DNA from: Bacteroidales bacterium | GTDB taxonomy: Bacteria > Bacteroidota > Bacteroidia > Bacteroidales > GCA-2748055 | Assembly: GCA_023135955.1 (NCBI GenBank) | Contig: JAGLSB010000230.1 | Location: 1 to 38,419 of the forward strand | Direction: 5' to 3' | Length of the DNA stretch: 38,419 nt | Part shown: piece after piece, positions 11,103 through 38,419 of the stretch | Numbering within the stretch: position 1 is the stretch's first letter | Layout of the letters: each line of letters starts with the position of its first letter | Notes under the pieces: model-generated | Told to the model about the DNA's origin: nothing | Seen by the model: only the letters and a program-made list of their open reading frames with translations | Databases searched by the model: none | Position numbers and translations under genes: made by a program

Positions 11103-11122
11103 GATATGTTTATTATGTCAAG

Positions 11123-17301: not shown

Positions 17302-17340
17302 TTATTATTTACTCGTAACGGAGCATTAAATATAAAGGTT

Positions 17341-18807: not shown

Positions 18808-18824
18808 AACATATTTGTTTTCTA

Positions 18825-19931: not shown

Positions 19932-19963
19932 AAACTTATTTCTCTTATTTCAGGCAGATTGAC

Positions 19964-20007
19964 ATCACGATCCTGTTTGATCCTGTGTGGTGGAACAGGA
20001 TCATGAT
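19964..20007 (-). repeat. Intra-operon inverted repeat (hairpin) upstream of the aldolase
   Basis: ATCACGATCCTGTT (19964-19977) pairs with AACAGGATCATGAT (19994-20007) over 14 positions with one mismatch (G-U possible in one orientation), around a 16-nt loop. A nested second copy of GATCCTGT (19979-19986) can pair with the same right arm, giving a competing hairpin. No T-tract follows, so it is not a standard terminator. It could mark mRNA processing, stabilise a 3' end or attenuate. Confidence 0.6.
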
Positions 20008-20077
20008 GCTGTAACCTTTATCTTCGTACTGAGCCTGTTATCTCTCTACTGTGTTTGTTTTCTATTTTCTGTGTATG

Positions 20078-21343: not shown

Positions 21344-21393
21344 AATTGTATGTATATTTCAATGATTGTTTTTTCGATATGACTTTTTCACGG

Positions 21394-21708
21394 CTATTTC
21401 AGGTAAAAGACCTCCTCCAGGGGGATCGTCACCGGGGAGTTGTCAGGATTTGTTTCCATAATATCGGCCATGTATGCCCACCATTTCTGCACCACCGGAT
21501 TGGTGCCGAGATCCTGTGATGAGCTCAGTCCCGACTGTTTTTGAACAGCGAAGAGAATATTGGTTTCTTCGTCCAGGAAAATGGAATAATCTGACACTCC
21601 GGTTTCCCGGATCAACTTTTCCAGTTCGGGCCAAAGCTGGTCGTGGCGTCTTTTATATTCGTCCTTGAATCCTGGCTTGAGTTTCATTTTAAATGCAAAT
21701 CGATTCAT
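21394..21708 (-). CDS. rhaM: L-rhamnose mutarotase
   Basis: 104 aa, the same length as E. coli RhaM. The opening N-R-F-A-F-K-M-K-L-K-P-G is typical of the family, followed by E-Y-K-R-R-H-D-Q-L-W-P-E with Tyr18 and His22 at the positions of the known active-site pair, S-I-F-L-D later, and a W-W-A-Y-M-A-D-I-M segment near the C terminus. It interconverts alpha and beta anomers of L-rhamnose, giving the isomerase its preferred anomer. It lies between an AT-rich sulfatase and the isomerase in one operon. Confidence 0.95.
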   Translation of the reverse strand: MNRFAFKMKLKPGFKDEYKRRHDQLWPELEKLIRETGVSDYSIFLDEETNILFAVQKQSGLSSSQDLGTNPVVQKWWAYMADIMETNPDNSPVTIPLEEVFYLK

Positions 21709-21755
21709 ATTTTTTATGAAGTTGTTTAAAGTTTACCCGATAGCGCACATTCACA

Positions 21756-23198
21756 TTATTTATAAACATATGCCTTGTTTAATGAGATATTATTTTGCTT
21801 ATACCATTTTATCAACAATTTTCGGCATCTCTCAAGTTGCTCCTTATACTCTTTTTCAAGTGCAAGATTGCACATCTCACCCGGATCATTTTTCAAATTA
21901 AATAGCATTTCATGCTGCTCGGAATTTCCCGCTATCATATATTTCCATTCGCCATCATAAACCATCCGGGCCCATAAAGCTTCGCCAACTATATAATCTC
22001 TATTCAACTTTTTCTTACTACCAGTTATAACCTTTTTCAAGCTAACACCAGGGGTGTTTTTTGGTATTTTTATTCCAGCAAGATCACATAAAGTAGGCAA
22101 TAAATCCAATCCATTAATAACCAAATTATTTTTATCCACCAACCCTGGTTCTATTTCTCCTTTCCATCTGATTATCAATGGAATTTTAACGGATTCATTA
22201 TAAAAAACCGATTTATGCTCAAGACGGTGTGATGCATCCATTTCTCCGTGATCACTTGTAAAAACGACTATTGTATTTTCATCATAGTCTGACTCATATA
22301 AAGCCTGAAGTAAAGTCCCAATTTTTTGGTCAACGAGTTCAGTAAGATTCTTATATGCCCAACGATACAATCTCCAATCCTTTTCAGTCCAATTTTCCCG
22401 CCCAAATATTGTAAATGGTTTTGTTGGACCTGCAGCTTCAAGAAATTCATCATCAGAGATATTAAAGTTATCAGGAAGAGGAGGACATATTTTCTCAAAA
22501 AAATGTTCTTCAGAAACACCTTCAGGTAATTTAAGAGCTTGTTGAAGCGTCTTCCAGGCTACGCCTCCTTTAGGATCTTCATTAAGTGATTTTCTCCAAT
22601 CGTTAATAACTTTATAACAAATATCGTGTGGATTGATAAAAGAAGCTACAAGGAAAAATGGTTTTTCATGTTTTTGTTTGAGAAATTCAGCACAGACGCC
22701 GGGAAGTTTATCACGGCTATCATTTGTTAATTTACGGAAACCATATTTTGTAACGTCATTAGCTTTTCCCTCTTGACCACCAGGTAAATGTACTTTCCCA
22801 CCATAGACTGTTTCATAACCTTCGTTTCGAAATAAGATCCCCAATGAATTGTTTAAAATATCTGATGGGACTTTCTTTCTCATTACTGAACCATTATCTT
22901 CCCCATTTATTTGCGAGGGCATCAACCCTGTCATTAAACTAAAACGTGAAGGAGCACAGACAGGATTTGATGCAAAGGTTTGTTCAAAAAGAATACCTGA
23001 TTGAGCTAAGTTGTCAAGGTTAGGCGTACTAACATAAGGGTTACCAACATAACTAAGCATATTTGCATTTTGTTGATCTGTTAAAATTAAAATTATGTTG
23101 GGGCGATTTTTGTCACTTGCGTGTAAATTCGCTGTTAAGGAGGGTTTAAAAAAAGACAATAACCCTAATAAAATAATGAACTGTTGAATTTTAGTCAT
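21756..23198 (-). CDS. S1 family sulfatase inserted in the rhamnose operon
   Basis: 480 aa with a signal peptide (hydrophobic I-I-L-L-G-L-L-S-F-F). Metal site I-L-T-D-Q-Q at 38-43, formylglycine motif C-A-P-S-R at 81-85 followed by F-S-L-M-T-G, then Y-G-G-K-V-H-L, F-I-N-P-H-D and F-T-S-D-H-G-E. The C-terminal subdomain carries F-N-L-K-N-D-P-G-E-M-C-N-L. The Cys and the neighbouring Pro/Arg are canonical. The gene is markedly AT-rich: sample 60-nt lines are 30-40% GC, against about 60% in a line of the neighbouring isomerase. It separates the transporter from the mutarotase, so it looks like a later insertion. It lies 47 nt from rhaM and 49 nt from rhaT. The substrate is probably a sulfated rhamnose glycan, by context only. 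Confidence 0.92.
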   Translation of the reverse strand: MTKIQQFIILLGLLSFFKPSLTANLHASDKNRPNIILILTDQQNANMLSYVGNPYVSTPNLDNLAQSGILFEQTFASNPVCAPSRFSLMTGLMPSQINGEDNGSVMRKKVPSDILNNSLGILFRNEGYETVYGGKVHLPGGQEGKANDVTKYGFRKLTNDSRDKLPGVCAEFLKQKHEKPFFLVASFINPHDICYKVINDWRKSLNEDPKGGVAWKTLQQALKLPEGVSEEHFFEKICPPLPDNFNISDDEFLEAAGPTKPFTIFGRENWTEKDWRLYRWAYKNLTELVDQKIGTLLQALYESDYDENTIVVFTSDHGEMDASHRLEHKSVFYNESVKIPLIIRWKGEIEPGLVDKNNLVINGLDLLPTLCDLAGIKIPKNTPGVSLKKVITGSKKKLNRDYIVGEALWARMVYDGEWKYMIAGNSEQHEMLFNLKNDPGEMCNLALEKEYKEQLERCRKLLIKWYKQNNISLNKAYVYK

Positions 23199-23247
23199 AA
23201 TATCTTCTTTATCAAATTTCTATTAAAAGTTACAATGTCTCCAGGTT

Positions 23248-24276
23248 TTATTTAATACTTACGACGAAAGTTGAGAGTATAAGGATGATAATACCGATGA
23301 TCAGTACAACAATCGTCTTTTTTCTTGTACCGTGCCATTCTTTAAGCAGGAGCCCCCATATGTTGCTGAATGCGATATTGAGTGCCATGAGGATACTCCA
23401 CCCGAAGATAGCCATTTCCGGTGGCAACTGACTTTTACCCATGCCAAAGAAGAAAAACTGCATGAACCAAAGTGTGCCCGCTAGAAAAGTGAAGAAGACA
23501 TTGTTTAAGAATGTTTTCCCACTGACAGAGAGGTAGTCGGTATAGGTTTTATTTTTGATGTTGAGGTAGACGCAGTAAATGAAATTTGTGGTAAATCCAC
23601 CGATAAGGATGAAGATCATTGTCGGATTGGTCTGGAACAGTGGGTTGGTGCCATATTTCAGAGCGATTTCATTGATCGGCATCCCTGCCTCGAGTCCGTA
23701 ATTAAAGCTTGCGCTGGCAAGACCGGCAATCAGTGCAATGAGCAATCCTTTTTTCAGGGCAAACTCCTTCACAGCTTTTTTTCGTTCCTCTGCGGAAAGA
23801 TTTTTATCTTTCAGTATTCCTGCATATCCGATAACGGCGATTCCGGCGAGGGCAATAGAGACACCGACCACTGTAAGTATCCCCGCTTTTGATGCGAAGA
23901 GGTTCTCTCCGGCAACTATCGGCGGAATGAGGGTTCCGAAGGCCGCCGTGAGTCCGAGAGCAATACTTTGCCCAAGAGCGATCCCGAGGTACCTCATGGC
24001 AAGTCCAAATGTAAGCCCACCGATTCCCCAGATTGCGCCGAACATGATCGCGAGCCACTTAGCCTTTGTAGGTGCCTCGGAGAGGATGACGGGAAGGGAG
24101 CCTTCCGGCACGGTGATGTAGGCAAATAACCACGGTGCGATCAGCCAGGCAGCTACACCCTGCATGATCCAGTAGGATTCCCAGGACCAGGATTTAACCT
24201 TTTTAAAAGGGACGTAAAAACTTGCGGCACCGATGCTGCCGATGGCGATTAGGCCAATACCGATGATTGGGTTCAT
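23248..24276 (-). CDS. rhaT: L-rhamnose/proton symporter
   Basis: 342 aa (E. coli RhaT is 344 aa) and highly hydrophobic, with about ten predicted membrane segments. Family landmarks: the opening G-I-G-L-I-A-I-G-S-I-G-A-A-S-F-Y-V-P-F-K-K-V, then W-S-W-E-S-Y-W-I-M-Q-G, I-W-G-I-G-G-L-T-F-G-L-A-M-R-Y-L-G, A-L-G-L-T-A-A-F-G-T, W-F-M-Q-F-F-F-F-G-M-G and S-N-I-W-G-L-L-L-K-E-W. It imports L-rhamnose across the inner membrane with protons. It is the first gene of the rhamnose operon, divergent from the susC locus, with a candidate promoter about 45 nt upstream. Confidence 0.95.
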   Translation of the reverse strand: MNPIIGIGLIAIGSIGAASFYVPFKKVKSWSWESYWIMQGVAAWLIAPWLFAYITVPEGSLPVILSEAPTKAKWLAIMFGAIWGIGGLTFGLAMRYLGIALGQSIALGLTAAFGTLIPPIVAGENLFASKAGILTVVGVSIALAGIAVIGYAGILKDKNLSAEERKKAVKEFALKKGLLIALIAGLASASFNYGLEAGMPINEIALKYGTNPLFQTNPTMIFILIGGFTTNFIYCVYLNIKNKTYTDYLSVSGKTFLNNVFFTFLAGTLWFMQFFFFGMGKSQLPPEMAIFGWSILMALNIAFSNIWGLLLKEWHGTRKKTIVVLIIGIIILILSTFVVSIK

Positions 24277-24320
24277 TTAGGTTATTTTTAATGTAATTCG
24301 AACAATAATTTTTATCTGTT

Positions 24321-24328
24321 CAAAAATA
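24321..24328 (-). promoter_or_regulatory. Putative -7 element of the rhaT operon promoter
   Basis: On the minus strand 24328-24321 reads TATTTTTG, an exact fit to TAnnTTTG. The expected -33 position (near 24349) has only a T-run, so the upstream element is weak. The predicted leader to the ATG at 24276 is about 40 nt. Confidence 0.38.
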
Positions 24329-24350
24329 AGTCGGTCTGATTGTAAAAAAA

Positions 24351-24458
24351 ATGAAGATTATGATTCTTTCTTTATACTTTTTGGCACTCGCTTTAGATTC
24401 AGAAGAGGCGGATGGTATATCAACGGAAATGAATGAATTAGCTGTTCTTCTACTTTAG
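24351..24458 (+). CDS. Possible 35-aa small ORF with hydrophobic start
   Basis: ATG at 24351 follows an A8 stretch of the kind used as a Bacteroidota ribosome site. The peptide starts M-K-I-M-I-L-S-L-Y-F-L-A-L-A-L, then turns acidic (D-S-E-E-A-D) and ends after 35 residues. This could be a leader peptide or a small secreted or membrane peptide, but it overlaps a promoter region and may be chance. Confidence 0.2.
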   Translation: MKIMILSLYFLALALDSEEADGISTEMNELAVLLL

Positions 24459-24636
24459 TGAGAGAAATATTAAATTGTTTAACGCTTTTTTCTGTATTTT
24501 TATCATCTTTATTTAAGGAACTAATTAAGAAATCTCTGGAATATGTAGTCTATAAATTATTGTCATTTAGTGCAAAAAAATGATCACTTTGTGTATTTCC
24601 TAAAAGTTACAATGATGTTAATATTACATAATGATC

Positions 24637-24670
24637 TTTGACGGACTAATTTCACTCTTAATTCAATTTG
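24637..24670 (+). promoter_or_regulatory. Putative promoter of the first susC gene
   Basis: TTTG at 24637-24640 is followed after 22 nt by TCAATTTG at 24663-24670. The pair has nearly the same form and spacing as the element upstream of the GH106 operon. Transcription would begin near 24675, just before the first ATG (24678), which favours either a leaderless message or one of the later start codons. Confidence 0.4.
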
Positions 24671-24677
24671 TACACCC

Positions 24678-27600
24678 ATGCCATTAGAACAGACAGTTGC
24701 CTTGACCGATTTGATGTTTGATGATAAAAACATCAGGAGTAGAGGCGTCTTAATTGAAATCAAATTGAAATTTCTAAGTGCCTGTTTATTATTCGTTTGT
24801 ATGATTTCTTTTTCTTCCGTATTATTTGCTCAGGATAATGGTATGATTCGTGGAAGGATTACAGAAAAATCCTCACAAGAACCTCTTCCTGGAGTGACGT
24901 TAATAGAGCGTGATCAGAATAATCGTATCATTAATGGAGTTATTACAAATATCAATGGAGATTATGTTTTGGAGGTTAAAGATATCAAAAACCAGATAAG
25001 AGCAAGTTTTGTTGGGTTTGAGACTCAGATTTTTTCTGTAGATAATAGGACGGTAATCAATATTGAGCTGGAGCAATCAAGTACTGAACTTGAAGAAATA
25101 GTGGTTATTGCTAAAGCAGAGAGTGATAATTTAACAGGTGTAAGCACGCGGGATCAGACTGGTTCATCGGTTAAAGTAGATATGGCCAGTTTAATCGGAC
25201 AGGCAGGAGTTTCAGTTGCAAGTGCCTTACAGGGACAGGTTTCTGGATTAGATATAGTTTCAGCGTCTGGTGCGCCAGGTAGTGGATCCAGTATAGTGAT
25301 CCGGGGCATGGGGTCCATAGGGAACACCAATCCTCTGATCGTAATTGATGGCATACCACAGGACGTCTCCTCTGACAATTTCAATTTTGCTTCGGCGGAT
25401 CAGCATGACCTGGGACAGCTACTGAACATTCCGCCCCAGGATATTAAATCGGTCGAAGTATTAAAAGATGCTGCGACTACAGCCGTATGGGGATCCAAAG
25501 GAGCAAACGGGGTTCTTGTTATTGAAACCAATAAAGGAACCAGGGGAAAAATCAACTTCAATTACCAGTACAAGCTGGATGCCAACATTGAGCCATCACC
25601 TCTTCCCATGCTCAATGGAGATGAATATACTATCTTGCAGCGCGAGGAGTGGCATAATGCTTTTGGTGTTTACGAAATTCCTCCTGAAATTGCTTATGAC
25701 AGGAATTTCTCTGACTATTATAATTATTCAGACAATACAGACTGGATCGGAGCCATCACACAGAACTCATTTACCCACGACCACTTCTTTAAATTATCGG
25801 GAGGTAGTGCAAACAGCCGTTATTATACTTCGGTAAATCACCATAGTGAAGTAGGTACAACTATAAACACTTCTTTTGAACGTTTTTCGGTGAGGGCGAA
25901 CTTTGATTATGATATCTCTGACAAATTACGGCTGACAACTAACCTGAATTATACGAATACATTCAGGGAGGATAATCCCGAAACAGAATTGCGTTACAGG
26001 GGCCGCCGAATGAATATCAGACAATTGGCATACATAAAAGCACCCAATATGAGCATTTGGGAACATGATGAATATGGGAACCTGACTGGAGAGTATTTCA
26101 CTCCCATTGAGAGTTACCAGGGTGACGGGGACCTGTACCTGAATCCGGTTGCCGTCTCAAACCTGGGAATGAATGATGTTGAGGGAAACCAGATACAGAA
26201 TAATTTTGTGATCAATTATAAAATAGCTAATTGGATCACTTTCAAGGAAAGCCTGTCATTTTCCTATAACAATAACAAAGGAAAACAGTTTATGCCTTCT
26301 TCTGCTATCGGCGCAGACTGGCTCGATTATAAGAACAATCTTTCCAATGAGAGGAATTTCATGAACCTTCGTTTGCTCAGTCGTTCCCAATTGTTTTTAT
26401 ATCCTTTAAGGAAGAGCAGGGTACATTCGATGACAGGAGTATTGATGTGGGAGATGGAGGAAAAAACTGGCGAATATCTGACCCTGATCAATCAGAAGTC
26501 CCCAAGTATGTATATTACTGATCCGGCGAGGAATTCTCCCAATCTTCCTCAGGGTCAGACATCCTCTTCCAGCTCCAAGTCAAGATTGCTTGGCGCCCTT
26601 TCCAGTTTTAATTATAAGTACAAAGACAAGTATCTGATCACAGCTAATCTGCGGGCCGATGCTAGTTCCAGTTTCGGAGGTAACAACAGCTGGGGACTTT
26701 TCCCGAGCCTGTCGGCTGGCTGGAGGTTCTCAGAGGAAGATTTTCTAAGTTCACTGGCTTTTCTTGACGAATCCAAATTGCGATTGAGTTGGGGACAGTC
26801 GGGGAAGGCCATCGATAACGATAATTATCCGACCTATTCCTATTATGAAACATCCGGACGGTATCTCGACCTCCCGGTCATCAGTCCGGCACAGATGCAG
26901 CTTGATAATCTGAGATGGCAGACTGTCACAAGCTGGAATGCCGGAATCGATCTGAATTTATTCAAGCAGAAGGTTTATATCATGGCTGATATCTATAAGA
27001 AAGAGACGAATAATTTGTTGTGGAAGAATTACGGAATTCCTGGTTCTACCAGTTATGGATCTTTGAAATATTATAACGGTGGTGAATTGCAGAATGTGGG
27101 CTGGGAGTTTTTCACCCGGAGTACGGTCTTTGAAGGAGAAGAATTTCATTTATCCCTTAATTTTAATATTTCTCAGAATTTCAATAGTTTCGAGTCTTTC
27201 CCCCAGAATTTTAACCTTATCCAGGGCAGCGATATCGGGAATGGTGTCTATCCGATGAAAGCAGAAGTGGGGAAGCCCATTGGCAGTTTTTATGGTTTCC
27301 GGTATCTTGGTGTATATCCATCGGATGAAGATGCATACGCACGGAATGAAGCGGGTGATATTATCGTTGATTCCCAGGGGGAACCGATACCAATGACCTA
27401 TAATGAAGTGTACCAGTTCAAGGGTGGGGACGCCATTTATGAAGACAGAAATCACGATGGTAAAATCGACATTATGGACGTGGTTTACATAGGGGACTCC
27501 AACCCGGAGGTTATTGGCGGATTAGGTACTTCTGCACAGTACAAACAGTTCAGTGTTTCTGTAAATTTCCATTATCGTCTCGGTTTCGATATCATTAATA

Positions 27601-28007
27601 TAGTGGCAATGGATACCGAGGGAATGCTTGACCGCAATAACCAGAGCCTTGCCACCATTAACCGGTGGAGAAGGCAGGGTCAGGATGAGGAGGGTTTATT
27701 GCCCAGGGCTTATATCAATCATCCGGCAAATAACCTGGGCTCCGACAGGTATGTGGAACAGGGTGATTTCCTTAGGTTGAACAGTCTCAATCTCAGTTAC
27801 AGGGTCGGCCGTCGAATTGCTAGCAAACTCAATTTAAATGGACTGGAAATCAGAGCTGTTATGCGCAATCTCATGACATTCACAAACTATACCGGACAGG
27901 ATCCGGAGATTGCCAGGGTCAGTACAAATCCGTTTTTCCTTGGTACAGACAGGGCACAGACTCCCCCTGCAAAGATTTATAGTTTGGCCGTTAATATGAA
28001 TTTTTAG
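24678..28007 (+). CDS. SusC/RagA-type TonB-dependent outer-membrane transporter
   Basis: 1109 aa from the first ATG. A hydrophobic signal (L-S-A-C-L-L-F-V-C-M-I-S-F) ends at L-F-A-Q-D near residue 52. An N-terminal CarboxypepD-reg-like domain follows (G-M-I-R-G-R-I-T-E to about 135). The plug domain carries N-P-L-I-V-I-D-G-I-P and V-E-V-L-K-D-A-A-T-T-A-V-W-G-S-K-G-A-N-G-V-L, the SusC signature. The remaining ~800 residues are a beta-barrel ending with L-A-V-N-M-N-F. There is no STN domain, so signalling to an anti-sigma factor is unlikely. It forms the energy-dependent pore of a SusCD complex for oligosaccharides. The ATG at 24678 gives an unusually long leader; ATG 24714 or TTG 24765 would give a more typical signal peptide. 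Confidence 0.94.
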   Translation: MPLEQTVALTDLMFDDKNIRSRGVLIEIKLKFLSACLLFVCMISFSSVLFAQDNGMIRGRITEKSSQEPLPGVTLIERDQNNRIINGVITNINGDYVLEVKDIKNQIRASFVGFETQIFSVDNRTVINIELEQSSTELEEIVVIAKAESDNLTGVSTRDQTGSSVKVDMASLIGQAGVSVASALQGQVSGLDIVSASGAPGSGSSIVIRGMGSIGNTNPLIVIDGIPQDVSSDNFNFASADQHDLGQLLNIPPQDIKSVEVLKDAATTAVWGSKGANGVLVIETNKGTRGKINFNYQYKLDANIEPSPLPMLNGDEYTILQREEWHNAFGVYEIPPEIAYDRNFSDYYNYSDNTDWIGAITQNSFTHDHFFKLSGGSANSRYYTSVNHHSEVGTTINTSFERFSVRANFDYDISDKLRLTTNLNYTNTFREDNPETELRYRGRRMNIRQLAYIKAPNMSIWEHDEYGNLTGEYFTPIESYQGDGDLYLNPVAVSNLGMNDVEGNQIQNNFVINYKIANWITFKESLSFSYNNNKGKQFMPSSAIGADWLDYKNNLSNERNFMNLRLLSRSQLFLYPLRKSRVHSMTGVLMWEMEEKTGEYLTLINQKSPSMYITDPARNSPNLPQGQTSSSSSKSRLLGALSSFNYKYKDKYLITANLRADASSSFGGNNSWGLFPSLSAGWRFSEEDFLSSLAFLDESKLRLSWGQSGKAIDNDNYPTYSYYETSGRYLDLPVISPAQMQLDNLRWQTVTSWNAGIDLNLFKQKVYIMADIYKKETNNLLWKNYGIPGSTSYGSLKYYNGGELQNVGWEFFTRSTVFEGEEFHLSLNFNISQNFNSFESFPQNFNLIQGSDIGNGVYPMKAEVGKPIGSFYGFRYLGVYPSDEDAYARNEAGDIIVDSQGEPIPMTYNEVYQFKGGDAIYEDRNHDGKIDIMDVVYIGDSNPEVIGGLGTSAQYKQFSVSVNFHYRLGFDIINIVAMDTEGMLDRNNQSLATINRWRRQGQDEEGLLPRAYINHPANNLGSDRYVEQGDFLRLNSLNLSYRVGRRIASKLNLNGLEIRAVMRNLMTFTNYTGQDPEIARVSTNPFFLGTDRAQTPPAKIYSLAVNMNF

Positions 28008-28029
28008 CTTCGATTAAATCGTTAGGAAT

Positions 28030-29496
28030 ATGAAGAAGGTTTTCATTTATATATTATTGCCAATTACAGGTATGTTGATGATGTCAGGCTGTGAGGATGC
28101 ATTAAAACTATATCCCCCGGATGGTCTCATAAAAGAGGAATTCTGGCAAACCAAGGAAGATGTGGAGTCTGTTCTGATGGCCGGGTACCAGAGTTTGTCA
28201 AATCTCGATTCCCGGTTGTTCTATTATGGCGAATTAAGAGCCGACATGCTGGATGATGGCGGAAACCTGGGGGCCAACCACAGAAACATCATGGAAAGCA
28301 ACATCTATCCTTCCAATAAATGGGTCGATTGGAGTCCTTTTTATTCCGTGATCAATAATTGCAACCTGGTACTTAAATATGCTCCTGATGTACTTGAAAT
28401 TGATCCCACGTTTTCGGAATTCAAATTCAATACAATGAACGCAGAAGCTGTGTTTCTAAGGAGTCTGGCCTATTTCTACATGGTCAGGATCTGGAAAGAT
28501 GTTCCCTTCGTTCTCACTGCTTACGATAGTGACACGCAAGAATTCTTTCTGGAAAAAACAGATGGCTCAATTATTCTTGATTCGATCAATGTCCAACTGG
28601 AAAATATTCTGCAATATGCCCCTGAAGATCATGAAACCCTGGCAAGAACCAGGGGCAGGTCGACCAGTGGGGCAGTTAATGCATTGCTTGCTGATATAGC
28701 ACTATGGGAGTTTAATTACCAGGATTGCATCGATTATGTCACAAGAGTAGAAGAGAGTTCCCTGTACGAACTGGTGCCTGGTGATTCGTGGTTCAGGATG
28801 TTTTATGAAGGAAATACCCTTGAAGGGATTTTTGAAATCCAGTTTGATAGTGAAGCAGGTCAGAATAACAGCATGTACGACATCACCAAGCCACAGAGTA
28901 ACAACTTTATTGCCAGTGAATTTGCCCTTGAATTATTTTCAGCGGAAATGTTTGGGGAAATTATTCGTGGCTATGGATCAGTCAGGGAAAGTGATAAGAT
29001 TATCTGGAAGTATGTGGGGCAGAGTGCGGACGGACTGATGTTCAGGTCGGGATCCAATCTGAAAAGCACAAACTGGATCGTATACAGGTTGGCTGATTTA
29101 CTACTGATGAAGGCTGAAGCCCTGGCCCAACTAGGTCGATTTAATGAAGCCCTGCAGATTGTCAATGATATCCGTACACGTGCTTTTGTGAATCCATACA
29201 GTCAATTCCAACAAACACCTCAGGCATTTGAAGATATGATTCTTGAAGAGCGGGCGAAGGAGCTTGCTTATGAAGGAAAACGATGGTTTGACCTGATGCG
29301 CATGGGAAGGCGGAATTCCTATGCCAGAAAGGATAAATTGATTGAAATTATTATTAATAATGTGCCAGCTACTCAGAAAAGGGTATTAGCGGCAAAGCTC
29401 AGCGATCCCAATGGATGGTATTTGCCAGTTTCCAGTGATGAGATCGAGAATAACCTAAAACTAGTTCAGAATCCATATTATCAGGTCTATGAATAA
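28030..29496 (+). CDS. SusD/RagB-type surface lipoprotein
   Basis: 488 aa with lipoprotein signal M-M-S-G-C, lipidated Cys about residue 21. SusD traits: early P-P-D-G-L-I-K-E-E-F-W-Q-T-K-E-D-V, N-A-E-A-V-F-L-R-S-L-A-Y-F-Y-M-V-R-I-W-K-D-V-P-F with TPR-like helices in the middle, and a C-terminal block E-E-R-A-K-E-L-A-Y-E-G-K-R-W-F-D-L-M-R-M-G. It covers the SusC barrel from outside and binds the glycan. It lies 22 nt after susC, and its end overlaps the start of the fasciclin gene by 8 nt, which suggests translational coupling. Confidence 0.94.
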   Translation: MKKVFIYILLPITGMLMMSGCEDALKLYPPDGLIKEEFWQTKEDVESVLMAGYQSLSNLDSRLFYYGELRADMLDDGGNLGANHRNIMESNIYPSNKWVDWSPFYSVINNCNLVLKYAPDVLEIDPTFSEFKFNTMNAEAVFLRSLAYFYMVRIWKDVPFVLTAYDSDTQEFFLEKTDGSIILDSINVQLENILQYAPEDHETLARTRGRSTSGAVNALLADIALWEFNYQDCIDYVTRVEESSLYELVPGDSWFRMFYEGNTLEGIFEIQFDSEAGQNNSMYDITKPQSNNFIASEFALELFSAEMFGEIIRGYGSVRESDKIIWKYVGQSADGLMFRSGSNLKSTNWIVYRLADLLLMKAEALAQLGRFNEALQIVNDIRTRAFVNPYSQFQQTPQAFEDMILEERAKELAYEGKRWFDLMRMGRRNSYARKDKLIEIIINNVPATQKRVLAAKLSDPNGWYLPVSSDEIENNLKLVQNPYYQVYE

Positions 29497-31108
29497 TCAT
29501 AAGATAGTGAATAAATATTCCGGTAAAAGCAATATGCTTTGGCATGTTTGGAGGTTCTTTCCACTCCTCCTGCTCATGGTATCCTGCAAGCAGGATCTGC
29601 CTTTAGTACCATTTTATGAGGGTATTAACGAGGGTATGAATGAATCCATAGCTGAATATGTATTAAACAGAGAGGAGTTGTATTCCATGTTTGGCGAATT
29701 ATTGGTTGCAGGATCGCTTGACGGGACATTAACTGCCTACAATCCGCATGGCAATGATTATACCCTTTTTCTGCCTACGAATGATGCATTTGAATCTTTT
29801 ATCGAGAGTAATCCGAAATACCAGGACTTCCAGGATTTGCTATATGATACCGAGTATGTTCATGTGCTGGTTCGCTTTCATATTGTGAATTTAGCCATCC
29901 AGAAGAATGATTTCCCTTTCGGTGTGTTACCGGATACGACTCTTTCGGGTGATCTGCTTAATTTAGGATTTGTAGGGGATATTGATTCAGTTTTAATTAA
30001 AGTAAACAATGAAGCATCGATCATACAGTCTGATATCGAACTGACCAATGGATATATCCATGTTATTGACAAGATGCTTGAACCCGTTGTAGAAAGCAGT
30101 TATGAATGGCTTTCTACCAAGGATCAGTATTCGATTTTCACAGCCGCAATGGCCGAGACCGGCCTGCGGGATACCTTTAAAATAGAAGCAGGTACCGGAA
30201 TTTCTATCTTTCCGCCCAATACAATGCTAATAGAACCTGATGCAGTTTTCGAAAAAAATGGCATTTTTTCCCTGGATGATCTGAAATCGATCTATAGTCC
30301 CGACAGAGACGATTATCAGGATTACACGAACGGATTGTATCAGTTTGTAGCCTATCATATTTTAGAGGAAAAGAATTTTCTGAACAATTTTGAGGGCCAG
30401 AATACCAATTATAATACCTATGCGAGCATGCCTCTCAGGATAAACGGTTTGGGTATTGATTTGAAGGTCAATGAGGGTTCATCAGTATATGATACTGTTA
30501 TCGTGGGCATTGATACCACTCTTATCAATTTCATTGGTATTCAGTACGATTTGAGTAATGTTGCCACAAAGAACGGGGCCATTCATATCATTGATAATGT
30601 GCTGGAACTCTACCGGCCAAGTCCGATAACGCGTAATTTTCAATTTACCGAAGACCCTGTGATCGCGGATGCACGTAAGTCGACCGGAGAATACACGTTT
30701 GATGAAAAGGATAAAGAAAAGTTTGAGTATATCTCCTGGGAAGGAGTTGAAGTACTTAAATATGAATATTCTGCATCCGATATACCCAATATGTGGGGAA
30801 ATGATTACCTGGAGATCAACGGCGACTTCACGATCTCTTATGAATTGCCAGGTATTCTTCCGGGGAATTACATGTTGCGCATCAGAGCCAATGACGAATA
30901 CAATAATAATGCCACTATTCAGATCCTGGTTGATGGAAACAGGGTCGGTGGGAATGTTGATCTTTCGTCGAATCCCAATTCCAATAGCGAAATTATCAAT
31001 TTTGACATCGGAGAAGTTGTTTTTGAGAATTATGAAAGGCATATTATTACAATCAAGGCACTGATTCCGGGAAGGTTCATTTGGGATGCTGTTATTTTTA
31101 ACCCATAA
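29489..31108 (+). CDS. Fasciclin (FAS1) domain lipoprotein A with C-terminal jelly-roll-like module
   Basis: 539 aa. Lipobox L-M-V-S-C (Cys about 33). Two FAS1 domains: the first (about 40-200) with Y-T-L-F-L-P-T-N-D-A-F and closing N-G-Y-I-H-V-I-D-K-M-L; the second (about 208-375) with I-S-I-F-P-P-N-T and closing N-G-A-I-H-I-I-D-N-V-L. From about 385 a beta-sandwich-like domain follows: G-N-Y-M-L-R-I-R-A-N, I-Q-I-L-V-D-G-N-R-V-G-G, I-I-T-I-K-A-L and F-I-W-D-A-V-I-F. This order resembles a CBM6/35-type jelly roll. Likely a surface glycan-binding or adhesive partner of the SusCD pair; no enzyme motif is seen. The start overlaps susD; ATG 29534 is an alternative. Confidence 0.87.
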   Translation: MNNHKIVNKYSGKSNMLWHVWRFFPLLLLMVSCKQDLPLVPFYEGINEGMNESIAEYVLNREELYSMFGELLVAGSLDGTLTAYNPHGNDYTLFLPTNDAFESFIESNPKYQDFQDLLYDTEYVHVLVRFHIVNLAIQKNDFPFGVLPDTTLSGDLLNLGFVGDIDSVLIKVNNEASIIQSDIELTNGYIHVIDKMLEPVVESSYEWLSTKDQYSIFTAAMAETGLRDTFKIEAGTGISIFPPNTMLIEPDAVFEKNGIFSLDDLKSIYSPDRDDYQDYTNGLYQFVAYHILEEKNFLNNFEGQNTNYNTYASMPLRINGLGIDLKVNEGSSVYDTVIVGIDTTLINFIGIQYDLSNVATKNGAIHIIDNVLELYRPSPITRNFQFTEDPVIADARKSTGEYTFDEKDKEKFEYISWEGVEVLKYEYSASDIPNMWGNDYLEINGDFTISYELPGILPGNYMLRIRANDEYNNNATIQILVDGNRVGGNVDLSSNPNSNSEIINFDIGEVVFENYERHIITIKALIPGRFIWDAVIFNP

Positions 31109-31128
31109 TAAGGCTTAAACATTCGCAT

Positions 31129-32661
31129 ATGAAAAGGATACCATGGATAATATTAGTTATAATGAGTGTTTTCCTGGGCAATTGTGCCAAAGAGTGGGAG
31201 GAGCATTATGAGCCTGTTCAGGAAAGTATCAACATGAAGTTATGGGATACGCTTGTAACCATGGAGCAATTCTCGGAATTTATAAAATATGCTGAATTGT
31301 ATGATCTGGATACGGTGATTCAGGCATCCAACGCCAAGACACTTTTCCTTCCCGATAATGATGCGTTTCAATCCTATCTGGCTGGTGATACAACAGGGAT
31401 TGTCGAAACCATGATGTATCATGTTGTTCCTACATTTTTTATGCTTAGAAATGTAGACGATCAATACAGGCTAAAAACCCTTGATGGAAAGTATGCACTC
31501 GTTTCAAATGACGATTATCAGTACAAAGTTGATGGAATTGATATCCTGAACAGTAGTGATTTGTTTCTCGATGGTAAGTATTATGAAACCGATAGTGTCC
31601 TGGTTCCAAAACCCAATTTATACCAGTACCTGACATATAATAGTTCAAGCATAAAGGAATATATCGATAGCAGGGACTCTATCGTTCTGGACCGGGAAAA
31701 TAGCAAGCCTATCTATTTCAATGATCAGGGTCAGACTGTTTATGATTCTGTAGTTACTATTGTTAACCTGTTTGAGGAGGAGTACTTTGCCATTACCGAG
31801 GAATATGAAAATATTGCGGCAACCCTGGTGGTCCCTGACCAGGTAGCTTATGAAACAGCTTTGGACAATATGGCATCCTTTCTCGGGGATCATTACGCTT
31901 CCCATGAAGATATACCGCTGGACTGGCAAAATAACGAATTGATACCCCTTCTACTGAACCGGGGAGTGTATGGGGGCTTATTGGAACCTGAGTATTTTAA
32001 CAGGACAAAAATTGCCAATATTAACGGTGACAGCATTCTGGTCGATCTTGAGCTGGATCCGGCCTCAAGATATATTTGCAGTAATGGGCTGGTATATAAT
32101 TACAGTACTTTTGAAATCGGAGACAGCTTGTACAAGGACAGGAACTTTGAAGCAGAAGATTTTGTTGAATCGCTCGGCTTAGGTAAGTATGTCTGGAGTA
32201 AGGAATTTGTCACAGTTGGAGGCAACCAGGCATTGCTTCCAGATGAGCAGAGGGTTCCCGGAACATCTAACGATACCATTGTTAACATCGATTTTCCGAC
32301 CGGATACACTGGAGATTACAGCGTAAATTTCAAGATCGGGAGAATTTTCCCCAACAGTTACAGGCTGGTCTGGAGAACGAATTACAGAACCTCAGGGATT
32401 TATGCTGTATATGTGAATGGAGAGCGAATTCAACTGGGATTAAGTAAATATGACACGTTTGATACCTATCAATTGTCCGGTGGATTCTTCAGTGTGCTTG
32501 GTTACAAGCTGTATCCCGATAGTCGGGGTTTCTGTACAATTGATGGATGGGTCGAGATTGAAGAATACGGTGATGTCAACATTACTCTGGAATATCTGGA
32601 CTCTGGCAGTTCCAGTGATAACGGACTGAATATAGATTACTTACAATTGTTATTCAGATAA
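31129..32661 (+). CDS. Fasciclin (FAS1) domain lipoprotein B
   Basis: 510 aa with lipoprotein signal F-L-G-N-C (Cys19). FAS1 domain 1 (about 35-165) has K-T-L-F-L-P-D-N-D-A-F and M-M-Y-H-V-V. A second, weaker FAS1-like region (about 170-330) closes with S-N-G-L-V-Y-N-Y-S. The C-terminal ~140 residues again look like a jelly roll: S-Y-R-L-V-W-R-T-N-Y, I-Y-A-V-Y-V-N-G-E-R-I, D-V-N-I-T-L-E-Y and L-N-I-D-Y-L-Q-L-L-F at the very end, like the terminal strands of CBM-type domains. It starts 20 nt after FAS1 protein A and ends 4 nt before the second susC, so it is in the same operon. Probably surface-exposed and glycan-binding; unproven. Confidence 0.83.
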   Translation: MKRIPWIILVIMSVFLGNCAKEWEEHYEPVQESINMKLWDTLVTMEQFSEFIKYAELYDLDTVIQASNAKTLFLPDNDAFQSYLAGDTTGIVETMMYHVVPTFFMLRNVDDQYRLKTLDGKYALVSNDDYQYKVDGIDILNSSDLFLDGKYYETDSVLVPKPNLYQYLTYNSSSIKEYIDSRDSIVLDRENSKPIYFNDQGQTVYDSVVTIVNLFEEEYFAITEEYENIAATLVVPDQVAYETALDNMASFLGDHYASHEDIPLDWQNNELIPLLLNRGVYGGLLEPEYFNRTKIANINGDSILVDLELDPASRYICSNGLVYNYSTFEIGDSLYKDRNFEAEDFVESLGLGKYVWSKEFVTVGGNQALLPDEQRVPGTSNDTIVNIDFPTGYTGDYSVNFKIGRIFPNSYRLVWRTNYRTSGIYAVYVNGERIQLGLSKYDTFDTYQLSGGFFSVLGYKLYPDSRGFCTIDGWVEIEEYGDVNITLEYLDSGSSSDNGLNIDYLQLLFR

Positions 32662-32665
32662 GAAA

Positions 32666-35600
32666 ATGAATGATTACATGAAAAAGTATGGCTTAATAAT
32701 CTGTTTGTCGCTATTCCTGTTAAGCAATGGTTATGCACAGGAAGGTTTTCGGATAAATGGTGTAGTTCTGGGTACAAATGGAAAACCGGTCAAGGATGTT
32801 TCTATCAGCATTGAAGGAGTAGGTATACAGCCCGAGTATTCTGATGAAACGGGGAACTTTATCATTGATGCACCTTCGGGTGATGTCTGGCTGATCATTC
32901 AGCCGGTACGACAGTACAAAAGCAAGCGTGTCTATCTGAACAACCGGAACCAACTAAAGATATACCTGACAGAAACCCATATTAAGTCAGGTTATGATGA
33001 TGTTACACTGATCAATAATGATTTTAAGCGGCGGGATGTACTATCGGTGCTCAGTGATCTGGATCAGGATCTTGTGGAAGAGAACAACTTTGTTACAATT
33101 GATCAGATGTTACAGGGAAGAATATCAGGAATGATGATTACCGGTAGCTCAGGGATGCCCGGTCAGGCTTCCTTCAGCAATATCCGGGGAATGGTTTCAA
33201 TGAATACGTCAAATGCTCCATTAGTGGTGGTGGATGGAATGCCCGTGGAGAGGCCGGGTCTTTTTATTTCGGGAATAGAGGGAAACAGTTATAATCCGTT
33301 CTCCACCATTGATCCCTCGGATATTTCAAGTATCTACATTCTGAAAGATCCTGTTCATGCCACGCTTTATGGTACCAAAGCTTCTAACGGGATTATACTG
33401 ATTGAAACCCTGAAGGCATCGGCTACACAAACAACCATCAATGTCTCTTTTAAAACCGGTCTGCGCACAACTCCTTCCAGGTTGATTCCTCAGCTGAATG
33501 CAGAGCAGTACAAAACCCTGGCAAATGAGATCCTGATGTCTTCACCAAAAAAACTTGAGTTATTCGAAATTGATTATCCGGGTTTGTATACGACCGAGGC
33601 CGATGATGCGTACTACCGGTATATGCATCACACCAATTGGCAAAACCTGATTTTTTCCAATGCAGTCATGACCAATGCTTACATGTCAATTAAGGGAGGA
33701 AGTGAGATTGCCACCTATGGTTTGTCAGTCGGCTACCATGACGAGGACGGGGTTTTCAAGAATTCAAGGTATAATCGCTATAATGTCAGTTTTGTGAGTG
33801 ATCTGAACATTTTTTCCTGGTTCAAGATGAATGTGAATGCCTATCTTACCAATAGCAATGCCTATCTCATGGAGTCGGCACTGTCCCCGCAGACAAGCCC
33901 GGTGGCAACAAGTCTTTTTAAACCACCGATCATGTTTCCTTATCAGTATGATGATGAAGGGCAGCAGTTAACAAGCCTTGATGAGGTGGACGAACTGGGT
34001 ACCAGTAATCCTGTCGCCGTAGTGAATAATTTCATTGGTGATAACAAGAATTACCGGTTCATATCATCCATTAAGGGACAGGCCGATATATCAGACCATC
34101 TGAATTTCACAACTCTTATGGGAATCAACTTTAATACTTTGAAGGAGTTCATCTTCAGACCCAACCGGGGAATGGAAAGTTATCTGGCCGGAGAGGTTCA
34201 TAATATTGCCAGAGCAACCAATAATTATTTGTACGCATTTTACACCGATAACTATTTCAGATACAATAAGCAGGTAGGTACAAAGCACCGGTTTGTTTCC
34301 ACTGCCGGATTGCGTGTTAATACCAATACTTATGAGGCTGATTTTGGCGAGGCATTTAACCTACCGGAAAATGACCAGTATTCAAGTCTGAACTCAGGCG
34401 AAACTGATATGAAGAATATCGGAGGAATGAATGAACGGTGGAACTGGATGTCTCTCTATCATCATTTTGTGTATAAATACCAGGATAAATACATCCTGAA
34501 CACATCGCTTTCCGGAGATTTTTCTACTCGTACAGGTCATGAGGCTGAGACCTTGCTACGGCTGAATGGATCCCCCCTGGGCCTTTTTTATTCTATTGGT
34601 GCTGGCTGGAGAATCTCCGAAGAGGGATTCATGAAATCAATGAGTGAACTGGATAATTTATTACTGAGGGCATCCTTTGGAACATCAGGTAATGATGATA
34701 TTGGTAACACGAGTGCTCGTGATTACTACTTTGTTACCCTGTATCGTGAAACTTCAGGACTGGTTCCCAGTGTGATGGCAAACAAATACCTGAAGCATGA
34801 AACACTCAGTCAATTGAATGGAGGAGTGGATCTTTCAGTTTTTGGAGACAGGGCTTCATTGTCCGTTGATTATTTCAAAAAAACAACAGATGATCTGCTG
34901 ATCAATGATCCGCTTGAGGGTTTCCTGGGGTTTGACAACAGGTTATCCAACACGGGTAAAGTGGAAAACAGGGGATTGGAAATCTCTTTGTTTTACCGGG
35001 TCATTGACAGAGAACATTTTAAAATGGACCTGTTGACCAATTTCACAACCCTTCAAAATGAAGTGAAGGATCTTGGTGATAAGACATTGATTACAGATTT
35101 TCCCGGAGGAGCATTTGTGACCCGGGAAGGTGATCCGTTGAACAGCTTTTATGGTTATACATTTCAGGGAGTGTATGCCACTCAGCAGGATGCTGAACAG
35201 GCATCATTGGTCAATGAGCGTGGGATACCCTTTGGAGTGGGTGATGTCATTTATGCTGATTATTCCGGTCCAGAAAGGGAACCCGACGGTGTGATTGATG
35301 ATTATGATAAGGTGAATCTGGGTTCACCGTTGCCAGATTATTATGGGAATTTCACCAGCAACTTCAGTTATAAACGGTGGTCGGTCAATCTTCACGTTTC
35401 CTATACCGCAGGAAATGAAGTGTTTAATTATACCAGATACCTTAATGAAAGAATGGTTGATCTGTCCAACCAGAGCACATCAGTTTTGAATCGCTGGCAA
35501 TCTGACGGGGATATTACTCAGGTTCCGCGTGCATTGTGGAATGACCCAGTTGGAAACTCAGCATTTTCATCGCGATGGATTGAAGACGGATCCCATTTCA

Positions 35601-35821
35601 GGTTGAAATCATTGACGGTGAGATATAGTATCCCACAGAATTTCCTGGTTTTCAAGGATGCCGATTTTTATATAACAGCTATTAATTTACTTACTCTGGA
35701 CAGATATTTAGGTTATGATCCTGAGTTCAGTTATACTTATAATCCGATGATGCAGGGGATTGATTATGGACTAATGCCGCAATCCCGGTCATTCATTACG
35801 GGTATCAGGTTTGGATTGTAA
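32666..35821 (+). CDS. Second SusC/RagA-type TonB-dependent transporter
   Basis: 1051 aa with a signal peptide ending at G-Y-A-Q-E. The CarboxypepD-reg-like domain (about 28-105) starts F-R-I-N-G-V-V-L and has the N-G-K-P-V-K-D-V-S-I-S-I-E-G turn. The plug holds A-P-L-V-V-V-D-G-M-P and I-Y-I-L-K-D-P-V-H-A-T-L-Y-G-T-K-A-S-N-G-I-I-L, a diverged form of the SusC signature. The barrel extends to the C-terminal F-I-T-G-I-R-F-G-L. Transporter 1 has the more standard plug, so the two pairs probably differ in ligand. ATG 32678, four codons in, is followed by a K-K-Y basic start and may be the real initiation codon. Confidence 0.92.
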   Translation: MNDYMKKYGLIICLSLFLLSNGYAQEGFRINGVVLGTNGKPVKDVSISIEGVGIQPEYSDETGNFIIDAPSGDVWLIIQPVRQYKSKRVYLNNRNQLKIYLTETHIKSGYDDVTLINNDFKRRDVLSVLSDLDQDLVEENNFVTIDQMLQGRISGMMITGSSGMPGQASFSNIRGMVSMNTSNAPLVVVDGMPVERPGLFISGIEGNSYNPFSTIDPSDISSIYILKDPVHATLYGTKASNGIILIETLKASATQTTINVSFKTGLRTTPSRLIPQLNAEQYKTLANEILMSSPKKLELFEIDYPGLYTTEADDAYYRYMHHTNWQNLIFSNAVMTNAYMSIKGGSEIATYGLSVGYHDEDGVFKNSRYNRYNVSFVSDLNIFSWFKMNVNAYLTNSNAYLMESALSPQTSPVATSLFKPPIMFPYQYDDEGQQLTSLDEVDELGTSNPVAVVNNFIGDNKNYRFISSIKGQADISDHLNFTTLMGINFNTLKEFIFRPNRGMESYLAGEVHNIARATNNYLYAFYTDNYFRYNKQVGTKHRFVSTAGLRVNTNTYEADFGEAFNLPENDQYSSLNSGETDMKNIGGMNERWNWMSLYHHFVYKYQDKYILNTSLSGDFSTRTGHEAETLLRLNGSPLGLFYSIGAGWRISEEGFMKSMSELDNLLLRASFGTSGNDDIGNTSARDYYFVTLYRETSGLVPSVMANKYLKHETLSQLNGGVDLSVFGDRASLSVDYFKKTTDDLLINDPLEGFLGFDNRLSNTGKVENRGLEISLFYRVIDREHFKMDLLTNFTTLQNEVKDLGDKTLITDFPGGAFVTREGDPLNSFYGYTFQGVYATQQDAEQASLVNERGIPFGVGDVIYADYSGPEREPDGVIDDYDKVNLGSPLPDYYGNFTSNFSYKRWSVNLHVSYTAGNEVFNYTRYLNERMVDLSNQSTSVLNRWQSDGDITQVPRALWNDPVGNSAFSSRWIEDGSHFRLKSLTVRYSIPQNFLVFKDADFYITAINLLTLDRYLGYDPEFSYTYNPMMQGIDYGLMPQSRSFITGIRFGL

Positions 35822-35848
35822 TTGATTGGGCTGATAATTACATAAAAT

Positions 35849-37774
35849 ATGAAGAATTTACGATATTATCTGCAAGTAATTGATCCTCACAGAAGAGGTG
35901 CGAGCAACAAACCACATTTTTCAGGCAGGGGATTAAGGATTTATTCTATGGTCCTGATCATGGTTCTGGCCGGATATTCCTGCGAGGAATTTTTTGACCC
36001 CACCCAGGAATTGGTTCGGTACGAAAATGATATGTTCGCAGATTGGGATGAATACCGTTCTGCTGAAATGGGATTGTATGCACTTCAGCAGAAACTGGTG
36101 GATCAATTGGTTGTGCTGGGTGAATTGCGCGGAGATTTACTTGAGGTAACCGATTTTGCCTCACAAGACCTGATAGAAGTGAATAATTTTAGTATTCGGA
36201 AGGATAATCCCTACGCTTCTCCCGTGAATTTTTACAAATTAATCATTGCAGCAAATAAATTGATTCATCACCTGTCAACAGTACATCCTGAAGTATTGGA
36301 TAAAAACGCTCCCATCACCAATTTCGATCGCCTATACGGAGAAGCAATGTGCATGCGGACATGGGCCTATTTCAATGCCGTACGTATCTATGGAGAAGTT
36401 CCCTATATTCATGAAAGCCTGTACACAGTTGAGGAAATTGAGGCCTATATCAATTCTTCCTCCGAGTACGTTGTTTCCGAATATATCAATTTTGCTCCGG
36501 ATGGCTATTATAATGATACGATCAGGGATACAACCATCGTCATTGAAAAAAGATTCATGAATGAAAAGAATGTGATCCTGACGTTTACTGATCAGCTTGA
36601 AAATAATATAAAAGCTGTTGGCATTAATCATAGTCTCAACAACGGGGACGATACCTGGCAGGTGACCGTTTGGAATGATTACGCAAGACATGCCCTGCTG
36701 GGACAGATGTACATGTTTGATCAGAATTATAGCATGGCTGTCGAACATTTTGATCACATCATGTATAATAACACGTCTGAAACATCCAATATTTTGTTTG
36801 GTCTTGATAATAAATTCGCCAAAGCCAAATGGCGAAATATATTTACAAGTCTGGATCCCTGCGAACATATCTATATGATCTGGTTCGGAAAATCCTATAA
36901 ACAAACCAATGGATTACAGAAGATGATGGGTGTGACTCCAAATGATTACATGGTAAAACCTACCGCAGCATCTATTCAAAATTGGGAATCCATATGGAAC
37001 AACCCGGTCTATTATAAGGATTTTTCCAATCCTTTAAAATCCAGGGTCATTGAGCCCGGAATTCCGGGTGATTTCTACAGGGGTTATGGTGTCTCCTATC
37101 AGTATTTCAGAGATGGTATTGAACTGACTTCGGACGATGTTCAGGATATGTTGCTGAAAAAGATGGATGGCAATATTGTCGAAGTTCAGTTACTGATGGA
37201 ACGTGTGGATGCCGTGGCAACGAAATATGAAATCAACAAGGATCCATTTGCACAGGATGCCAACTATACTGTATTTCGGGCAGCAGGTATACATCTCTAT
37301 GCTGCAGAAATCTATGCTGTATGGAAACATATTTACGGTGGACTAACCACTACTCCGCGTATCCGCATGAATACAAGTCTGAACATCCTGAATGATGGTA
37401 GTTATAACAGCAATACCAGTCAACTGGGAGTAAGAGGACGTGTTGGATTCGCCGATGGTGATGAGGCTGTGAATATCGATAATATTGTTTATATCCATGA
37501 TCCAGTAAGCAATCAGATCACAGGATATATAGATTTTACCAATCAGCCAGATTTGCAGATGCGCTACATGCTTGATAAGATATTACAGGAGAGAGCAATG
37601 GAAATGGCCTTTGAAGGGGAGCGTTTCTACGATTTGATACGGATCGCAAAGCGATTGGATGATCCTTCCTATCTGGCAGAAAAAGTGGCAGCCAAATTCA
37701 AGGATCCTGTAATGAGAGAAAACATTTATAATAAGCTACTGAATGAAGAAAACTGGTATGTTAATTATTTCTGA
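35849..37774 (+). CDS. Second SusD/RagB-type lipoprotein, enlarged
   Basis: 641 aa, longer than typical SusD proteins (about 500-580). A lipobox L-A-G-Y-S-C lies near residue 45, after a long N-terminal stretch; ATG 35948 would give a conventional short signal. SusD traits are Y-G-E-A-M-C-M-R-T-W-A-Y-F-N-A-V-R-I-Y-G-E-V-P-Y near residue 170 and the C-terminal block Q-E-R-A-M-E-M-A-F-E-G-E-R-F-Y-D-L-I-R-I-A. The extra length lies in the centre, including a D-T-T-I-V-I-E-K strand region (about 210-260) and loops around 340-420. It follows susC 2 by 27 nt and precedes another fasciclin lipoprotein by 45 nt. Confidence 0.91.
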   Translation: MKNLRYYLQVIDPHRRGASNKPHFSGRGLRIYSMVLIMVLAGYSCEEFFDPTQELVRYENDMFADWDEYRSAEMGLYALQQKLVDQLVVLGELRGDLLEVTDFASQDLIEVNNFSIRKDNPYASPVNFYKLIIAANKLIHHLSTVHPEVLDKNAPITNFDRLYGEAMCMRTWAYFNAVRIYGEVPYIHESLYTVEEIEAYINSSSEYVVSEYINFAPDGYYNDTIRDTTIVIEKRFMNEKNVILTFTDQLENNIKAVGINHSLNNGDDTWQVTVWNDYARHALLGQMYMFDQNYSMAVEHFDHIMYNNTSETSNILFGLDNKFAKAKWRNIFTSLDPCEHIYMIWFGKSYKQTNGLQKMMGVTPNDYMVKPTAASIQNWESIWNNPVYYKDFSNPLKSRVIEPGIPGDFYRGYGVSYQYFRDGIELTSDDVQDMLLKKMDGNIVEVQLLMERVDAVATKYEINKDPFAQDANYTVFRAAGIHLYAAEIYAVWKHIYGGLTTTPRIRMNTSLNILNDGSYNSNTSQLGVRGRVGFADGDEAVNIDNIVYIHDPVSNQITGYIDFTNQPDLQMRYMLDKILQERAMEMAFEGERFYDLIRIAKRLDDPSYLAEKVAAKFKDPVMRENIYNKLLNEENWYVNYF

Positions 37775-37819
37775 CATTGCCTTCATTTGTTTGGTATACC
37801 TGTATAATTTTAAAGAATC

Positions 37820-38419
37820 ATGAAAATATTCAGTATCAATACATACCGGATCCTTTTTCTGTTGATTGTGCTTGGACCTGTATTCCAGGGATGCCAGCGA
37901 GATATGGAGGATCTGGAAAAATATCAGCCTCAGGATTGGTTAAAAGGTAAGATATTTAGCCAGATAGAAGCTGAGGACGACCTGGCGTATTTTATTAGTT
38001 GCCTGGAAAGGATTGGCTATGATACGATTTTAAACACTTCGGGAAGTTATACAGTTTTCGCTCCTACCGACGCTGCATTTGAGTCCTTTTTCCAGGAGCA
38101 TCCTGAATATAATGAAGTTGATGATATTCCTTTAGAGGAACTGGAATCGATGGTAGAGTATCAGATGATTTTCGATGCCTGGAGCATGGAACAATTTCGA
38201 ATCCTGGATTACGATGGATGGGTTGATCCTGCAAACAAGTTGCAGGAACCCCGTGCCTACAAATATAAAACGATCTACAAGCCTGAAAATCGGACTTTTC
38301 TTGCTAAGTATTACGGAGGGAAATATGTTATTGCTGATGAAAATGAGTCGAACCTGACAATGGTCGCTTTTTCCAACTCCAACAAGTACAGTCCGGTTTT
38401 CTTTAGTGAGTACTTCAGT
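37820..38419 (+). CDS. Fasciclin (FAS1) domain lipoprotein C, 3' end outside window
   Basis: The frame opens at ATG 37820 and stays open to the last base, giving 200 residues. The signal M-K-I-F-S-I-N-T-Y-R, a hydrophobic core and lipobox V-F-Q-G-C (Cys25) mark a lipoprotein. The following region has FAS1 features: L-E-R-I-G-Y-D-T-I-L near residue 65, then Y-T-V-F-A-P-T-D-A-A-F-E-S-F-F, the classic FAS1 H1 motif. Its position after the second SusCD pair repeats the arrangement after the first. The rest of the gene, and any C-terminal jelly-roll module, is beyond the window. Confidence 0.85.
   Translation, partial: MKIFSINTYRILFLLIVLGPVFQGCQRDMEDLEKYQPQDWLKGKIFSQIEAEDDLAYFISCLERIGYDTILNTSGSYTVFAPTDAAFESFFQEHPEYNEVDDIPLEELESMVEYQMIFDAWSMEQFRILDYDGWVDPANKLQEPRAYKYKTIYKPENRTFLAKYYGGKYVIADENESNLTMVAFSNSNKYSPVFFSEYFS

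Follow-up and report, generated by a model that had tools for sequence, protein, structure and literature searches.

The closest described systems are the levan and dextran utilisomes of Bacteroides thetaiotaomicron, in which a SusCD core is joined by surface lipoproteins (PMC7618045). The surface glycan-binding protein (SGBP) of the levan system comprises lipidated N-terminal and central domains and a C-terminal levan-binding domain; the same work names as open whether polysaccharide utilisation loci (PULs) that encode multiple SusCD pairs and binding proteins build several utilisomes or mixed ones (PMC7618045). Here we describe a contig of a Bacteroidales bacterium (JAGLSB010000230.1 of assembly GCA_023135955.1; 38,419 nt, the whole of which is termed the window) that encodes, at positions 24678-38419, two different SusC/SusD pairs interleaved with three lipoproteins carrying FAS1 (fasciclin) domains. 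The locus is probably a single copy of an importer cassette that is widespread, has two SusCD pairs and carries FAS1 lipoproteins where SGBPs would usually be found. It shares with the utilisomes the SusCD core and the surface lipoproteins, and the layout of the levan SGBP resembles the order FAS1-FAS1-carbohydrate-binding module (CBM) found here; the utilisomes differ in that they have a single kind of SusCD pair, lack FAS1 domains and count a surface endo-enzyme as one of their four components (PMC7618045).

The cassette and its recurrence in Bacteroidia

An earlier note on this DNA had read the order SusC-SusD-FAS1-FAS1-SusC-SusD-FAS1 on one strand, with short gaps or overlaps. Order and coordinates were reproduced from six-frame open reading frames and Pfam searches, and the spacing along the cassette is 22, -8, 20, 4, 27 and 45 nt:

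24678..28007, + strand: SusC1, TonB-dependent SusC-type transporter of the first pair (Pfam Plug 7e-17, CarbopepD_reg_2 5e-13)
28030..29496, + strand: SusD1 lipoprotein (SusD_RagB 1.3e-33; lipobox C21)
29489..31108, + strand: FAS1a lipoprotein (Fasciclin 4e-25, two stretches; lipobox C33)
31129..32661, + strand: FAS1b lipoprotein (Fasciclin 3e-11; lipobox C19)
32666..35821, + strand: SusC2, a second, distinct SusC-type transporter (Plug 1e-14)
35849..37774, + strand: SusD2 lipoprotein, 641 aa (SusD_RagB 3.6e-10, SusD-like_3 2.4e-6)
37820..38419, + strand: FAS1c lipoprotein, open at the contig end (Fasciclin 3e-7; lipobox C25)

The two adjacent SusC/SusD pairs mark the locus as a SusCD-based PUL. 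The three FAS1 proteins gave PF02469 bit scores of 89, 43.9 and 31.2, against a Pfam gathering score of 22. A lipobox-like cysteine is located near the N-terminus of SusD1 and of all three FAS1 proteins, and a less canonical one, C45, in SusD2; gene order and lipoboxes together thus place lipoproteins beside SusCD, as in SGBP systems. The start of SusC1 is uncertain, for the first ATG (24678) lies about 24 codons ahead of the signal peptide and a downstream GTG or TTG may be the true start.

A total of 81 distinct loci were read (the window and 80 others), and the order is identical in all of them as far as the contig reaches, save for the position of FAS1c in the window. At least 50 of the 80 other loci are complete seven-gene blocks, with median gaps of about 8-23 nt. 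With this recurrence the window gene order is not due to chance, and the conservation on which the earlier note had made its idea depend was found across Bacteroidia. FAS1c is located 3' of SusD2 in the window, whereas it stands at the head of the operon, before SusC1, in all other loci that show it; the trailing gene of the window either has been permuted or opens a second tandem cassette that continues past the contig end.

Among relatives taken from the FAS1a alignment, the seven-gene neighbourhood was found in Gramella, Zunongwangia, Salegentibacter, Leeuwenhoekiella, Wenyingzhuangia, Galbibacter, Flavobacterium alvei, Segetibacter, Natronoflexus pectinivorans, Alkalitalea saponilacus, Dysgonomonas and a metagenome-assembled genome (MAG) of Chitinophagaceae, and it was also found in MAGs of Prevotellaceae and Bacteroidaceae and of sediment Bacteroidales. 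The carriers are gut, soil and marine Bacteroidia of the Flavobacteriaceae, Chitinophagaceae, Marinilabiliaceae, Prevotellaceae/Bacteroidaceae, Dysgonomonas and sediment Bacteroidales. FAS1a is present in 17 of the 28 genomes of the window's own family. In a second family, a gut-type FAS1a model has matches in 248 of 349 genomes, and of 18 FAS1a places sampled there, 14 proved to be the double cassette or a variant close to it; one genus of this family has matches in 23 of 159 genomes, where all places that were read with enough flank are the cassette. In a class-wide sample, full-length FAS1b was found in about 2% of genomes, a lower bound since a narrower model was used and three candidates were scored per genome.

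Several variants were observed. A six-gene form without FAS1b occurs at four loci in the window's own family (L149-L152), and two loci (L206, L207) have three FAS1a genes in a row between SusD1 and FAS1b. FAS1a-like genes outside any SusCD cassette were seen at four places in the second family (L199, L200, L201 and L205), with two such genes at L200. In the loci read, the two SusCD pairs always occurred together where the contig was long enough to show both.

The host genome, for which the MAG Tobar13.5m-G9 is the nearest named genome, contains 41 PF02469 matches. The arrangement repeated on its contigs is FAS1c (about 770 aa) followed by SusC1-SusD1-FAS1a-FAS1b-SusC2-SusD2. FAS1a was found at 11 places; two of these hold a 3' fragment, possibly the end of a gene already counted at another place, and at least nine cassette copies are therefore present. 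Chance or assembly duplication was rejected as their source, because the copies have diverged, with about 35-55% identity to the proteins of the window. Of 34 host SusC genes above the TIGR04056 cut-off, both window SusCs included, 18 (about half) were counted as cassette members, 17 by a FAS1 neighbour and one, on a short contig (C748), by hidden Markov model (HMM) score. The copies of the host genome interleave with those of its relatives in the SusC trees, and the expansion is thus mostly older than the species or has spread between relatives. The 4.6-Mb draft genome also has 143 sulfatase (PF00884) matches, which suggests that the host may be a specialist on sulfated polysaccharides.

The trees of the seven genes agree, with a correlation of patristic distances of 0.88-0.97 over up to 57 cassettes, a measure that does not assign a given FAS1 protein to a given SusCD pair. 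Between the copies inside the host genome the correlation is 0.78-0.99, and shared species history therefore cannot explain the agreement. SusC1 and SusC2 are 26% identical. Cassette SusCs score 969-1614 bits with their own cassette HMMs, while the other SusCs read in the host genome reach at most 509, and the two are therefore dedicated SusC lineages. The nearest SusC in the PDB for both pairs is that of the dextran utilisome (8aa4).

Domain anatomy of the FAS1 lipoproteins

For FAS1a and FAS1b, AlphaFold models were obtained from the window protein and 21 homologues each (mean pLDDT 82.7 and 88.8, respectively). FAS1a is predicted to consist of two FAS1 domains and a CBM6/35-like domain (residues ~50-200, 203-376 and 378-539), and FAS1b of a FAS1 domain, a degenerate FAS1 domain and a CBM6/35-like domain (residues ~28-163, 164-334 and 334-510). 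By VIA-align, residues 31-331 of FAS1b match the tandem FAS1 domains of periostin (Z 19.1), and residues 334-510 match a region of a Paenibacillus xanthan lyase (6f2p; Z 15.4, 2.2 A over 136 residues) and MiXBM (7ehg; Z 14.1, 2.2 A over 130 residues), followed by CBM4, CBM35 and CBM6 at Z of about 11. Foldseek agrees on the domain assignment of both proteins. By sequence profile, the C-terminus of FAS1a matches MiXBM (E 1.3e-4) and CBM35 (E 0.019), the second domain of FAS1b is a FAS1 domain, and the CBM-like domains of FAS1a and FAS1b are homologous. Full-length relatives of FAS1c are about 770 aa long and have four FAS1 segments, and no CBM-like domain was found in FAS1c by profile comparison (probability below 1%). 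A full cassette therefore has eight FAS1 domains, two CBM-like domains, two pores and two lids.

The earlier note had placed the FAS1 lipoproteins where SGBPs usually sit, as glycan-binding partners of the transporters. The lipoboxes, the conserved double-SusCD operon and the co-inheritance bear out the placement. The proposed role stands in part: a carbohydrate-binding-type domain, as expected of an SGBP, is present at the C-termini of FAS1a and FAS1b, and together with the SGBP position it makes these two good candidates for a SusE/F-type glycan-binding role, which they are likely to have. The CBM-like domain, rather than the FAS1 domains, is likely to be the glycan binder; FAS1c has FAS1 repeats only.

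Neighbourhood and substrate of the window copy

The region beside the cassette contains genes for rhamnose utilisation and polysaccharide degradation:

24277..24677 (401 bp), no strand: divergent intergenic region, presumed promoter region, between RhaT (-) and the cassette (+); FAS1c, upstream in other copies, is absent here
15955..24276, - strand: rhamnose genes, outside the cassette (class II aldolase, FGGY kinase, class II aldolase, RhaA, RhaM, sulfatase, RhaT)
3679..14569, - strand: further context (GH106 alpha-L-rhamnosidase, sulfatase, GH127, Gfo/Idh, 3-keto-disaccharide hydrolase, AP_endonuc_2)

A gene for an AraC-type regulator is located between the rhamnose operon and the GH106/sulfatase/GH127 group. 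The carbohydrate-active enzymes linked to the cassette, as in other PULs, are GH106, GH127, an RHGA-type beta-helix protein and two sulfatases. With this neighbourhood, the window copy most likely serves a sulfated rhamnose-containing polysaccharide, such as ulvan or sulfated rhamnan.

Other copies are flanked, according to Pfam, by GH5 with CBM6 (L141, L148), GH5 (L144), GH95 (L143), GH16 with CBM6 (L152), GH43 (L054), a pectate lyase (L219), a GH28-like protein (L030) or sulfatases (L005, L016, L029). In a gut-type genome (L213-L214) the cassette forms a rhamnogalacturonan-like PUL with its neighbours, which encode GH106, several GH2 enzymes, a PL11-type rhamnogalacturonan lyase, GDSL esterases and a long regulator of AraC type (hybrid two-component-like).

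The link to rhamnose, which the earlier note had drawn from this locus, holds for the window copy (rha operon, GH106, sulfatases) and a few others; as a general rule it is not supported, and a rhamnose-only reading was rejected, since many copies adjoin GH5, GH16, GH95, GH43, pectate lyase or sulfatase genes. The flanking enzymes differ between copies, and the cassette is therefore a general module, reused for different polymers. The core idea of the earlier note is partly supported and is to be widened from one rhamnose locus to a class-wide cassette.

Proposed function and known systems

In the proposed mechanism, the two different SusC/SusD pairs would import oligosaccharides through two pores, as expected from their family. 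FAS1a and FAS1b would be lipid-anchored and exposed at the surface, their tandem FAS1 domains may serve as a stalk or dock, and the predicted C-terminal CBM6/35-like domain would capture the glycan. FAS1c, with its four FAS1 segments, could be a linker or scaffold. Several points weigh against this account. A shared fold is no proof that the CBM-like domain binds glycan, and the existence of the six-gene form means that FAS1b is dispensable in some lineages. At the window copy, the rhamnose genes form an operon of their own, divergent from the cassette and 401 bp away from it, and because the flanking enzymes of other copies are diverse, its own neighbourhood is the sole guide to its substrate.

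FAS1 domains are known chiefly as adhesion modules, and the FAS1 proteins might therefore serve mainly in adhesion, attaching the cell to an insoluble substrate or matrix, with co-regulation as their only tie to the importers. The closest solved FAS1 structures, periostin and TGFBIp, and the lack of a CBM in FAS1c would fit such a role; however, the fixed interleaved position in 81 loci and the matched gene trees suggest a physical partnership, and FAS1a and FAS1b each carry a CBM-like domain, so that we regard adhesion as the main role as improbable. Import of a cargo other than polysaccharide, e.g. peptides or glycopeptides as in RagAB, is very improbable: RagA does occur among the PDB homologues, but it matches less well than the dextran SusC nearest to both pairs, and the flanking genes encode glycoside hydrolases, polysaccharide lyases, esterases and sulfatases.

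Within the preferred reading, an importer cassette with FAS1 lipoproteins in place of SGBPs, the relation between the two pairs is a separate matter. We see about an even chance that they are separate importers for different fragments, encoded in one operon, each with its own FAS1 partner and with no joint complex; SusC1 and SusC2 are only distantly alike, and the solved levan and dextran utilisomes contain one kind of SusC (PMC7618045), but the pairs stay together wherever the contig is long enough, and they co-evolve. A hetero-utilisome appears doubtful, i.e. a complex in which two different SusCD pores would be held side by side by FAS1-FAS1 contacts, with FAS1c as the bridge, one polymer held by two CBM arms and different fragments entering different pores.

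One published figure, which depicts a cellulose/hemicellulose-like PUL of Gramella, includes a FAS1 gene (PMC4891872), and a FAS1 transcript is mentioned in a Bacteroidota symbiont (PMC10199937). A literature search for FAS1 or fasciclin with SusCD or PULs returned incidental mentions only, none as part of an importer, a weak negative as subscription papers lay mostly outside the search. The core xylan cluster of B. xylanosolvens (BXY_29250-29300) is alike in having two SusC/SusD pairs and a lipoprotein, conserved in several Bacteroidetes, but its susCD pairs are followed by a DUF1735 protein and GH10, are not interleaved and are without FAS1 (PMC11216935). In the rhamnogalacturonan II locus of B. 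thetaiotaomicron (BT0977-BT1030; PMC3243724), BT1025 is annotated as a TonB-dependent receptor and BT1028 as SusD, with the spacing expected if BT1030-BT1024 were the cassette, whereas BT1026 is annotated as DUF4957, not FAS1 (PMC10434189); BT1024-BT1030, compared by annotation, is a candidate for a known cassette member and only a lead.

SusE/SusF and other SGBPs are likewise lipoproteins encoded beside SusCD with a C-terminal carbohydrate-binding-type domain, and no Pfam SusE/F match was found among the window proteins; these SGBPs have Ig-like or DUF1735 spacers where the cassette proteins have the FAS1 tandem. Periostin, TGFBIp and Fasciclin I have tandem FAS1 domains in common with the cassette proteins by sequence and fold, while the latter differ as bacterial lipoproteins with an added CBM6/35-like domain and linkage to SusCD. 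MiXBM and the Paenibacillus xanthan lyase region share the fold of the FAS1a and FAS1b C-termini at about 20% identity.

As a SusCD system the cassette is a variant whose candidate glycan-binding lipoproteins are of a new kind. It probably represents a type of glycan importer that recurs in Bacteroidia with a fixed gene order and is missed if the FAS1 genes are read as stray adhesins, and FAS1-FAS1-CBM lipoproteins between two SusCDs can serve as a search marker for such systems. The finding also points to a genome in which the cassette copies stand alongside a large set of sulfatases. In comparison with the levan and dextran utilisomes, each with one kind of SusCD pair, the two pairs of this cassette make testable the question of several versus mixed utilisomes (PMC7618045).

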